The notes beneath the pieces are model-generated. The model saw only the letters and a program-made list of their open reading frames with translations. It did not search any database and had not been told where the DNA came from. A DNA stretch of 64,000 nucleotides from Lineus longissimus (taxonomy: Eukaryota; Nemertea; Pilidiophora; Heteronemertea; Lineidae). Of this stretch, positions 57,101-59,715 are shown piece by piece (the stretch's first letter is position 1; each line of letters starts with the position of its first letter). The stretch lies in contig NC_088319.1 in the NCBI RefSeq assembly GCF_910592395.1, positions 248,001 through 312,000 on the forward strand. The letters run 5' to 3'. Made by a program: the position numbers and the translations under genes.

Positions 57101-59715
57101 CTCACGGATCATGTCCCAACTGCTCGGTTCTTGAGCCATCTGTAACTCACAGATCATGTCCCAACTGCTCGGTTCTTGAGCCATCTGTAACTCACGGATC
57201 ATGTTCCAACTGCTCGGTTCTTGAGCCAACTGTAACTCACGGATCATGTCCCAACTGCTCGGTTCTTGAGCCAACTGTAACTCACGGATCATGTTCCAAC
57301 TGCTCGGTTCTTGAGCCATCTGTAACTCACGGATCATGTCCCAACTGCTCGGTTCTTGAGCCATCTGTAACTCACAGATCATGTCCCAACTGCTCGGTTC
57401 TTGAGCCATCTGTAACTCACGGATCATGTTCCAACTGCTCGGTTCTTGAGCCAACTGTAACTCACGGATCATGTCCCAACTGCTCGGTTCTTGAGCCAAC
57501 TGTAACTCACGGATCATGTCCCAACTGCTCGGTTCTTGAGCCAACTGTAACTCACGGATCATGTCCCAACTGCTCGGTTCTTGAGCCATCTGTAACTCAC
57601 GGATCATGTCCCAACTGCTCGGTTCTTGAGCCATCTGTAACTCACGGATCATGTCCCAACTGCTCGGTTCTTGAGCCATCTGTAACTCACGGATCATGTT
57701 CCAACTGCTCGGTTCTTGAGCCAACTGTAACTCACAGATCATGTCCCAACTGCTCGGTTCTTGAGCCATCTGTAACTCACGGATCATGTCCCAACTGCTC
57801 GGTTCTTGAGCCATCTGTAACTCACAGATCATGTCCCAACTGCTCGGTTCTTGAGCCAACTGTAACTCACGGATCATGTCCCAACTGCTCGGTTCTTGAG
57901 CCATCTGTAACTCACGGATCATGTCCCAACTGCTCGGTTCTTGAGCCATCTGTAACTCACGGATCATGTCCCAACTGCTCGGTTCTTGAGCCATCTGTAA
58001 CTCACGGATCATGTTCCAACTGCTCGGTTCTTGAGCCATCTGTAACTCACAGATCATGTCCCAAGTGTAAGACAGGTTGTGACGGCCCCCATCACAGTCA
58101 ATTAACTTTCTGTTGCAGGTCTGTTTGAAAGCATGCGTCAGGGTGACATGAACAACTGGAACAACATGAACCAGGACCAGCTACTCGAGCTCACGTTTTC
58201 TCTCAACTCGTTTATGAACCATGCAGGGATCCTTCAACACAGTCAGAATAGCTTACATAATTCGCAGGGTCCTTATATCAACAGCCACAATGGTAGTAAT
58301 GCAAGTTCGTTAGGTAAGGCCAACCCTAAGACCATAAGGTTCCATCCTAATGCAAGTTCGTTAGGTGAGGCCAACCCTAAGACCATAAGGTTCCATCCTA
58401 ATGCAAGTTTGTTAGGTGAGGCCAACCCTAAGACCATAAGGTTCCATCCTAATGCAAGTTCGTTAGGTGAGGCCAACCCTAAGACCATAAGGTTCCATCC
58501 TAATGCAAGTTCGTTAGGTGAGGCCAACCCTAAGACCATAAGGTTCCATCCTAATGCAAGTTCGTTAGGTGAGGCCAACCCTAAGACCATAAGGTTCCAT
58601 CCTAATGCAAGTTCGTTAGGTGAGGCCAACCCTAAGACCATAAGGTTCCATCCTAATGCAAGTTTGTCAGGTAAGGCCAACCCTAAGACCATAAGGTCCG
58701 TGTTGGCACCAATGAATGTTCTGTAAATAGATTTGATATTTCATCTTCATGAGAAGTCAGGTCAAAGTCAGACTCTCAAGCTTATCATAATACCCTAAGT
58801 TTCAACAAGTCTTCGTTTAAAAGTTGCAATATCTAACTGGGAAAAGTTGAACCACAACTATATTAGGTATGGACTGTTCAATGGAGGTCTGGTATCGAGT
58901 ACAGTCCCGTTCTTCCTCACGCTGAGCTCCTCTAACTTTGTTATTCTTGCTTTCAGGTTACGCTCTCAGCCCACACATGCCCATGATGCCAAACTCGAGC
59001 TCATCAAGCGGCCATTTACAAGTGTTGAATCAAAATTCACAATCTCTCAGTCCTCAGATCAGTCCAAGACAGCAGGTAAGTGCAACTGTTCATCCTTTAC
59101 CCTGTCCCTGGAGTACAAGGGTTAAGTACTATATTGAACTACAAAAACGCCAGAGGAAGCCATCAGTTCATCTTGATACGTGTTGAAGTGAATTACATGT
59201 ACATGTCTAACTGCACTGTTGAACACTGGGGGTTTTGTACAACTTTCTGTCTCTAGCTGGACCGCCCTTCCAAAGTTGAGTGGTCTGCTGTCGCCTTTTG
59301 AGATGGTCCCTAAGAACATGTATAGGGAAGTGTGGTGGCTCAGTGGATGAGCATCTGACTTGTGATCGGAAGGTCATGGGTTCAAGTCTCGGCCAGGGCA
59401 TGTTTGTGTGCGTCTTGGTTTCTACAGAAGCCATTCTGGATTAGTCTGTGGGAAGGTGTGAGACAGTACAAGTGTAAAGTAGAACGCCTGATATTAGAAC
59501 TTCACATTTCTTGGGAGACAAAAATACGTCTTATTTGTTTTAATTTGATTGTTTTCTTTGTTGAGGTGCAGGTAGGACATGGAGGCTACAACACGCACAG
59601 CTCGAGTGGGAACATGGTAGGCCTACCCCACACACCCTCGTCCTGTTACAGCCACCACACAACAACCGCCGAAGAGTTTGAAGAGGACTTCACCGATTGG
59701 GACAAACTGCTGTGA
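42140..59715 (+). CDS. FOXJ3: Forkhead transcription factor FoxJ2/FoxJ3
   Basis: Nine exons: 42140-42559, 47906-47980, 52059-52136, 52393-52512, 53622-53715, 56267-56380, 58119-58313, 58957-59075, 59572-59715. They join in phase to 452 aa plus stop. The N-terminus keeps the family motif [10 protein letters not shown]. The forkhead domain (about 94-186) spans exons 1-3: [67 protein letters not shown] and a basic end ([10 protein letters not shown]). C-terminal FoxJ2/3 blocks follow: [43 protein letters not shown] and an acidic end ([11 protein letters not shown]). Vertebrate FOXJ3 is longer, about 620 aa. Invertebrates usually have one gene for the FOXJ2/FOXJ3 pair. Exon 7 can end at any of eight donors in a 51-bp repeat; the first is used in this model. 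Exon 5 has a CAGCAG tandem acceptor. Nuclear DNA-binding regulator; targets unknown. Confidence 0.95.
42837..42846 (+). repeat. G10 homopolymer
   Basis: One of many G/C runs in this window, here in FoxJ intron 1. Confidence 0.7.
43290..43445 (-). mobile_element. tRNA-derived SINE fragment
   Basis: On the minus strand, GCGGTTGCGCAGTTGAAGAG (A-box region), an anticodon-like arm and GGTTCGACTGCCG (B-box) are spaced as in a tRNA. They are followed by unrelated sequence without a proper 3' acceptor end. It lies in FoxJ intron 1. Confidence 0.5.
44844..44867 (+). repeat. G24 homopolymer
   Basis: The longest G run in the window. It lies in FoxJ intron 1. Confidence 0.8.
44981..45864. mobile_element. 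884-bp piggyBac-type MITE
   Basis: Inverted ends CCCTTTAGCTACT are flanked on both sides by TTAA (44977-44980 and 45865-45868). A TTAA target and termini starting CCC are the hallmark of piggyBac elements. The inner ends also correspond (GGATCC / GGCGGATC). No transposase frame is seen, so it is non-autonomous. A short direct duplication of CGGGCGGATCAGT lies near its right end. It sits in FoxJ intron 1. Confidence 0.8.
46062..46349 (+). CDS. Possible alternative terminal exon of FoxJ
   Basis: An acceptor (ATTCCTTTCAG, ending 46061) opens a 95-codon frame in phase 0, the phase needed after FoxJ exon 1, ending at a TGA. It is Cys-rich at first ([26 protein letters not shown]) then Ser-rich. 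Used as a last exon it would give a FoxJ protein cut within the forkhead domain. No family match is recognised. It could be chance or part of an unrelated element. Confidence 0.2.
   Translation, partial: GKSRPSGVGCFDGCAVECGSGYTLRQFCTCVLHSQACGWRKCVAERFPALLKGCDLEKKLLAEQYSTGKKYPQPSFMSDSSEASNSPGSSCDRDV
46961..47885. repeat. 25-bp minisatellite, exactly 37 units
   Basis: TTGAGTACATCGATGATGAC + ATGTG repeats 37 times with no length change. Only three adjacent units (about 47186-47260) carry CGGTGATGAC in place of CGATGATGAC. The array ends 20 bp before FoxJ exon 2, leaving only the pyrimidine tract and AG. Because 25 is not a multiple of 3 and no frame of the unit has a stop, all three minus frames are open for over 300 codons. 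Confidence 0.97.
48170..48606. mobile_element. 437-bp TIR element (CAGGGTGACCC ends)
   Basis: Inverted ends of about 24 bp: CAGGGTGACCCGAAACGATT at the left, and its near-complement ending GGGTCACCCTG at the right. The flanks do not show an intact target duplication (TA on the left, AA on the right), so a Tc1/mariner-like origin is only likely. It encloses a copy of the dispersed repeat also seen at 32830. It lies in FoxJ intron 2. Confidence 0.7.
49696..49811. repeat. 27-bp minisatellite, about 4 units
   Basis: GCTCATGTTGGTGGCACGTG + ATATCAA, four units plus a partial fifth; the fourth has drifted (GGGACTTGATGTCAA). It lies in FoxJ intron 2. Confidence 0.85.
50103..50526. repeat. 53-bp minisatellite, 8 units
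   Basis: GTGGGTACGAGACTCTCAGC + AGGTCTCTTTAATGTGCCTT + GCTCCACCAAGGT, with the alternatives TTTAATG and TTTGACG in different units. It lies in FoxJ intron 2. Confidence 0.9.
52520..52740. repeat. Dispersed repeat (second copy of 18745-18935)
   Basis: Shares GCGTCTGGTG, CCCGCTTG and GGATCCACGCCTG blocks with the copy before the LINE at 18941. It lies in FoxJ intron 4, starting at the exon 4 donor region. Confidence 0.5.
53619..53624 (+). promoter_or_regulatory. NAGNAG tandem 3' splice site
   Basis: CAGCAG at the start of FoxJ exon 5 allows two acceptors 3 bp apart, giving proteins with or without one Gln before PQPPFIDSD. Phase is unaffected. Confidence 0.7.
54040..54652. mobile_element. 613-bp TIR element, TA target
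   Basis: Inverted ends of about 30 bp (GGC-TTTTTACACGGTGC-GGTTCAAG) are flanked by TA on both sides (54038-54039 and 54653-54654). Internally the phrase CGCTTTTACACG and CGGTTC-type blocks recur, so the element is full of internal repeats. No transposase frame is seen. The TA duplication suggests a Tc1/mariner-type MITE. It lies in FoxJ intron 5. Confidence 0.75.
54660..56260. other. FoxJ intron 5 remainder
   Basis: No exon is needed here, as exons 5 and 6 join in phase 1. ORFs at 55072-55440 (minus) and 55427-55685 (plus) have no recognisable features. Confidence 0.45.
56741..58064. repeat. 45-bp minisatellite, 29 units plus a partial
   Basis: CTCACGGATCATGTCCCAAC + TGCTCGGTTCTTGAGCCATC + TGTAA. 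Units differ at a few fixed positions (CAGATC/CGGATC/CGGAAC, CCATCTG/CCAACTG, GTCCCAAC/GTTCCAAC) and alternate in mixed order. The period is a multiple of 3 and one frame per strand lacks stops, so ORFs of 467 (plus) and 444 (minus) codons cover it. It ends 54 bp before FoxJ exon 7 and the plus frame does not join that exon's frame. Confidence 0.97.
58298..58697 (+). repeat. 51-bp minisatellite with a 5' splice site in each of 8 units
   Basis: Units start at 58298 + 51n. Each encodes the 17 residues [17 protein letters not shown] in the FoxJ frame and contains a donor right after ...TTAG. The first (58314) and last (58671) donors are GTAAGG; the six between are GTGAGG. The exon end moves by 17 codons per unit without changing phase. 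If no donor is used the frame continues to a stop at 58724-58726. Confidence 0.95.
59333..59440 (+). mobile_element. tRNA-derived SINE
   Basis: An A-box (TGGCTCAGTGGATGAGCAT), a well-paired anticodon arm with loop CTTGTGA, and a B-box (GGGTTCAAGTC) are followed by CTCGGCCAGGGCATGTTTGT. The T stem is poorly paired, so this is a SINE head and not a working tRNA. It lies in FoxJ intron 8. Confidence 0.65.

Follow-up and report, generated by a model that had tools for sequence, protein, structure and literature searches.

A tandem array of splice donors at an exon end of a Forkhead gene in the nemertean Lineus longissimus is probably a mirage minisatellite

A FoxJ2/3-like gene and the array at the end of its eighth exon

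The window analyzed here is a 64,000-nucleotide stretch of the Lineus longissimus genome (C12:248001-312000; positions below count from its first letter). Its plus strand holds a Forkhead gene, referred to here as FoxJ, with a tandem array of 51-bp units (58297-58697, plus strand) in which every unit carries a splice donor. We consider this array to be probably a mirage minisatellite, a tandem repeat spanning an exon-intron boundary, in which the first donor is the authentic one and its copies are tolerated. The gene model comprises ten exons (42140-59715), and the Forkhead domain was found at residues 95-174 of the product (Pfam PF00250, E 1.1e-37). The gene is presumably FoxJ2/3-like, a label that follows the resemblance of its C-terminal half. 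Exon 1 (42140-42559) contains the start codon and the start of the domain, which continues in exon 2 (47906-47980), and exons 3 to 7 follow at 52059-52136, 52393-52512, 53625-53715, 55380-55457, and 56267-56380. Exon 8 (58119-58313) is taken to close at the first donor of the array, an end placed by comparison with other mirages. Exon 9 (58957-59075) begins after the acceptor ttgctttcag|GT, and exon 10 (59572-59715) encodes the acidic C-terminus and the stop. The preliminary description of this DNA had given the same start for the array-bearing exon but had counted it as exon 7. Scans of viral and genome contig collections returned no relative of the 51-bp unit or of the FoxJ protein.

Tandem Repeats Finder (TRF) reported a period of 51 bp, which is 17 codons as previously described, with 7.9 copies and 98% matches. 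The array covers the end of exon 8 at 58313 and thus spans the exon-intron boundary. All eight units contain the donor AG|GTRAGG exactly at 58313+51n, in agreement with the earlier claim that each unit has GTAAGG or GTGAGG at the same place. We scored donor strength as pairing with the 5' end of U1. Donor 1 (TAG|GTAAGG, 58314-58319) forms a duplex of -9.9 kcal/mol and donor 2 (TAG|GTGAGG, 58365-58370) one of -10.0; donors 3 to 7 (at 58416, 58467, 58518, 58569, and 58620) have the same nine bases as donor 2 and score -10.0 each, and donor 8 (CAG|GTAAGG, 58671-58676) is the array's strongest match at -11.5. The edge units, 1 and 8, therefore differ from the inner units 2 to 7 in carrying GTAAGG in place of GTGAGG. 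The eight other donors of the gene range from -4.2 to -13.2, and only 16 of the 4092 plus-strand GT sites across the window reach -9.9, half of which (8/16) are the array donors. No feature intrinsic to the donors makes the FoxJ copies inert.

In the ten-exon model, splicing to exon 9 from any one of the eight donors leaves an open frame, giving products of 476, 493 ... 595 amino acids, so that the earlier statement that any donor preserves the frame holds. Vertebrate FOXJ3 is not known to carry such an insert, which serves as a lead only. A unit length of 51, a multiple of three, and the lack of a stop within the unit are what make the copies readable. Among 51-mers of the window, 3950 of 9136 (0.43) are open in a given frame, and with a 1 in 3 chance of a period divisible by three, the expectation is about 0.14 per array. 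The tandem array of donors exceeds chance, whereas its phase preservation is unremarkable. The three unit positions that vary, 11, 14, and 19 (setting aside the diverged end of unit 8), all alter the amino acid, and these changes give no sign of selection at the protein level. We considered the open frame as evidence of coding and rejected it because a second minisatellite, in intron 7 (45 bp x 29.4, plus strand, 56740-58064, 55 nt short of exon 8, with a top U1 score of -2.8), likewise has a period divisible by three and is open on both strands, though intronic in the model.

When no donor is used, translation would meet a stop at 58724-58726 and yield a product of 527 amino acids. The early stop had been noted before, together with a truncated protein lacking the acidic C-terminus; the stop stands, but decay of the failed transcript appears more likely than truncation, because neither AATAAA nor ATTAAA occurs within intron 8 and one further intron lies downstream.

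Donor arrays at other exon ends of the genome

We searched the 391,118,348-base assembly (30 contigs) with a relaxed pattern of three AGGTRAG motifs spaced 32-61 bp and with a strict pattern of three AGGTAAGT motifs. Over both strands, the relaxed pattern occurs at 598+410 = 1008 places and its reversed control at 200+539 = 739, and the strict pattern at 40+64 = 104 places against 15+140 = 155 for its control. Numerical enrichment of donor arrays is not shown, given that the reversed controls are of the same order; it is the location of the arrays and not their number that stands out. On chromosome 1, the relaxed pattern gave 17 clusters, 5 of them at coding exon ends (4 by homology). The arrays that we read were drawn from the first ~100 of the 1008 relaxed places, which cover chromosome 1 and the initial portion of chromosome 2, and from nearly all of the 104 strict places, those outside the read set being C14:9373591, C14:14578632, a 54-bp family on C17, and C19:1608005. 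Besides FoxJ, 30 arrays were read, and 14 of these were kept as exon ends, 9 by homology. The 16 left out were L011, L012, L014, L016, L018, and L020 (a dispersed 30-bp family), L024, L025, L036, L067, and L062/L075 (no clear exon); L023, L027, L033, and L034, which were unclear; and L071, a probable exon end with GTACGT as first donor and a 49-bp unit, not divisible by three.

The nine genes identified by homology are SMG1 (L002, G000:C1:108880; a frame-breaking array of 28 bp x 5; Pfam 9.3e-12), PRKDC (44 bp; 3.9e-25), SRP68 (34 bp; 4.2e-15), EDC3 (41 bp; YjeF_N 2.7e-12), a cadherin (42 bp; 1e-6), a carboxylesterase (47 bp; 7.5e-7), an LMAN1-like lectin (52 bp; 3.5e-21), CCDC93 (40/42 bp; 2.7e-37), and SETD3 (58 bp; 2.1e-4 to a solved structure). 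Among the 15 exon-end arrays in the matches listed, FoxJ included, 12 keep an open frame with the first donor only, 2 are partially open (L028 for donors 1-2 and CCDC93 for donors 1-4), and FoxJ alone is open for every donor. The first donor is the sole open one in 8/9 of the homology-identified genes besides FoxJ, and in 3/15 arrays the most frequent period is a multiple of three. In SRP68 (E 1.4e-14), EDC3 (1.5e-34), PRKDC (1.9e-9), and a cadherin, alignments to solved relatives cross the donor-1 junction gap-free. For SMG1, a search among solved structures found no relative, and the Pfam match covers 145 residues in protein and profile alike.

The donor 9-mers are identical within PRKDC, within SRP68, and within EDC3, so the authentic donor would be set apart there by position and not by strength. 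With 12 of 15 arrays open for donor 1 only, the copies appear to be tolerated without any need for productive use. These arrays are most simply explained by use of the exon-proximal donor, with the copies either skipped or their products destroyed.

Several features of individual arrays deserve mention. The cadherin array (L032, G000:C1:28667646-28670592) places 67 donor-bearing 42-bp copies in one intron, the first unit of which already contains a stop in the exon frame. SMG1 is the kinase of nonsense-mediated decay (NMD), and the gene matched to it here itself bears a frame-breaking donor array. In L003, L028, and L033, several units also have a CAG that resembles an acceptor, placed 5-18 nt ahead of the donor, which gives the unit the look of a tiny exon flanked by splice sites.

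Interpretation of the FoxJ array and its alternatives

Mirages have been described in amphioxus (Adh3, the globins BflGb6 and BflGb9, troponin C, and PGBD5), where tandem repeats of 10-160 bp in the named cases are reported to span the exon-intron boundary, with AG/GT signals in many copies and regular splicing undisturbed (PMC3087553, PMC3902484). In BflGb6, haplotypes with 6 and 3 units are reported (PMC3087553, PMC3902484), and the edges of a cluster are said to escape homogenization (PMC3087553). The FoxJ array likewise spans the boundary, bears a splice signal in its copies, and has edge units that differ; it is distinguished by its nemertean host, by keeping the frame in all copies, and by standing in a genome for which several such genes are listed. 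We suggest that a segment made up of 16 nt from the end of exon 8 and ~35 nt from intron 8 was tandemly duplicated and then spread by unequal exchange or slippage, which would have left a real donor in each copy. Donor 1 would yield most of the mRNA, without the 17-residue insert, since the other arrays need donor 1 and FoxJ by the same account would use it as well. The remaining copies would then sit in the intron and go largely unused, and splicing from a later donor, which is possible, would amount to a low-level in-frame leak and not to a selected switch. We assign a probability of roughly 0.77 to this reading, in which the array is a mirage minisatellite, donor 1 is authentic and predominant, and the copies are tolerated. 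The readability of the FoxJ copies would be a coincidence, about 2 of 15 arrays being expected to show it and 1 of 15 doing so.

Some of the evidence weighs against the mirage reading. All donors of the FoxJ array are good U1 matches (-9.9 to -11.5), with the last one strongest. The donor-1 end of exon 8 is deduced from sequence and from the other arrays, and 5 of the 14 companion arrays (L028, L068, L069, L070, and L074) are exon ends by open frame only. In the human gene IFI6, donors in downstream repeat units do take part in splicing, according to the cited reports discussed below. Predicted RNA structure adds a further difficulty: the strong hiding of inner donors predicted for FoxJ is particular to this array. 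Among six other arrays, accessibility peaks at donor 1 in 3 (SRP68, L028, and EDC3), but donor 1 ranks lowest in SMG1 and second lowest in PRKDC.

That hiding was predicted by single-sequence folding. A 7-bp hairpin, CCTAATG/CGTTAGG (58346-58365, plus strand, at the unit 2 position), is predicted to form across the unit junction and to pair the exon side of the donor, with energies of -6.2 kcal/mol for units 2 and 4-7, -4.5 for unit 3, -1.9 for unit 8, and -0.4 for unit 1. Predicted accessibility is 1e-6 to 9e-5 for the inner donors, 0.0048 for donor 1, and 0.0017 for donor 8; it is 0.0006-0.147 for the eight other donors of the gene, and, of 322 GT sites taken as background, 5% do not exceed 1e-4. 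The array as a whole is predicted to fold better than 100 shuffles (z -3.0). These predictions suggest that the hairpins forming at the unit junctions conceal the inner donors but hardly affect donors 1 and 8. As a general reason for ignored inner donors, RNA structure was rejected, being inconsistent across the six other arrays.

The preliminary description had taken the array to be a graded, length-variable splice switch, in which several donors are used meaningfully to give 0-7 inserts of 17 residues over a range that depends on the allele. Eight strong donors, all in frame, fit such a switch, and so does the IFI6 precedent, in which two downstream repeat units are reported to act as donors and yield three mRNAs (PMC4526556). 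Eight in-frame proteins are indeed possible in principle, but a designed use of several donors is not supported by comparison with the other exon-end arrays that we read: 12 of the 15 are open for donor 1 only, and in none of the other 14 do all donors leave the frame open. Use of the copies is hence not the general rule, and the openness of FoxJ is about what chance would give (0.14). The inner donors also lie in the predicted hairpin, and the differences at all three variable unit positions are nonsynonymous. We regard a selected switch as unlikely. A narrower version, in which splicing is divided between donors 1 and 8 at the two ends of the array (both GTAAGG and the least hidden) and most of the product carries either 0 or 7 inserts, draws on donor 8 having the array's best pairing with U1 (-11.5) and its second highest accessibility; it is considerably less probable still, as exon 8 would reach 552 nt against 75-120 nt for the other internal exons of the gene, and the accessibilities come from single-sequence folding.

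The AG directly before GT in every FoxJ copy would also permit self-erasing recursive splicing, whereby a unit is removed as a 51-nt intron, the same donor is rebuilt, and the array vanishes whichever donor is recognized first. The AG-GT pairing in the other arrays is true by construction, since the search patterns required AGGT; moreover, the pyrimidine share before these AGs is 0.47 in unit 1 and 0.59 in units 2-8, compared with 0.59-0.94 for the real acceptors of the gene, and a 51-nt intron would be far below the gene's shortest (256 nt), which makes this scheme improbable to a slightly greater degree than sharing between the outer donors. Least probable of all, in our estimate, is an assembly error in the copy number. 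Such repeats are difficult to assemble, and the FoxJ stretch has a single match in the genome assembly, with no second haplotype seen; on the other hand, the L. longissimus assembly tnLinLong1 is described as built from HiFi reads (PMC8593623), the difference between edge and inner units is orderly, and other arrays of the same kind exist. The high identity of the units indicates that copy number may vary between alleles.

Two further systems bear on the mirage reading. In human IFI6 (G1P3, 6-16), the downstream units of a minisatellite are reported to serve as donors for three mRNAs, a statement found in two reports citing the original work (PMC4526556, citing Turri 1995; PMC3618361, citing the same work). 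The FoxJ repeat likewise carries donor motifs in its downstream units and, tested for this as a trait of the IFI6 type, its unit is a multiple of three and open (51 bp, eight open isoforms); the IFI6 isoforms, too, reportedly differ by in-frame units. The IFI6 unit, however, is 12 bp long and use of its downstream donors has been reported, whereas the FoxJ unit is 51 bp and described here from sequence. Intron gain through duplicated AG/GT proto-splice segments, a model named in PMC3087553, also produces AG/GT repeats by duplication; in FoxJ, an existing boundary was duplicated, and no new intron is needed or seen.

Using limited terms in the open-access literature, we found no report of mirages or multi-donor minisatellites in nemerteans. 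The FoxJ array adds a member to a known kind, the mirages, and the wider point is that a single animal carries frame-breaking mirages at several of its exon ends. Mirages have been described in a few lancelet genes, and a related array in human IFI6. At least 10 nemertean genes with exon-end arrays, mostly frame-breaking, would provide natural tests of donor choice among identical neighbors, and FoxJ is the one whose splicing errors would show as in-frame proteins. If its later donors are used, the range of lengths that this transcription factor can take would follow the copy number of the allele.

Choice of donor by position, and other repeats of the window

We also considered that the L. longissimus spliceosome could choose its 5' site by position, taking the donor nearest the exon body among 3-67 near-identical tandem donors. 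This proposal covers at least eight homology-identified genes in which donor 1 is the sole open one, and we advance it tentatively, as an idea we would sooner bet against than on. In classic tests, tandem duplicate donors often favor the intron-proximal one. If the position rule is true, FoxJ would be the sole array of the 15 in which slips appear as a protein ladder (0-7 x 17 residues) and thus a natural reporter of how strictly the rule is kept.

Three of the five tandem arrays inside the gene lie within 60 nt of an exon edge (46960-47887, 56740-58064, and 58297-58697, at 19, 55, and 0 nt, respectively). Random placement matches this pattern of three near an edge in 0.5% of trials, in a test that was chosen after seeing the data. 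Intron 2 contains a 53-bp x 8 array (50109-50533) with AAG|GTGTGG and CAG|GT motifs, the unit of which is weakly exon-like. The minus strand has mucin-like open frames at 15832-16403 and 13090-13377, whose 33-bp and 156-bp repeats keep the frame, a type of array that looks coding. Elsewhere in the genome, the dispersed 30-bp family, with AGGTAAGA in many units, occurs at several places on chromosome 1 and is represented by L012, L014, L016, and L018 (8.47-8.59 Mb of C1) and by L020, with no clear exon adjoining.

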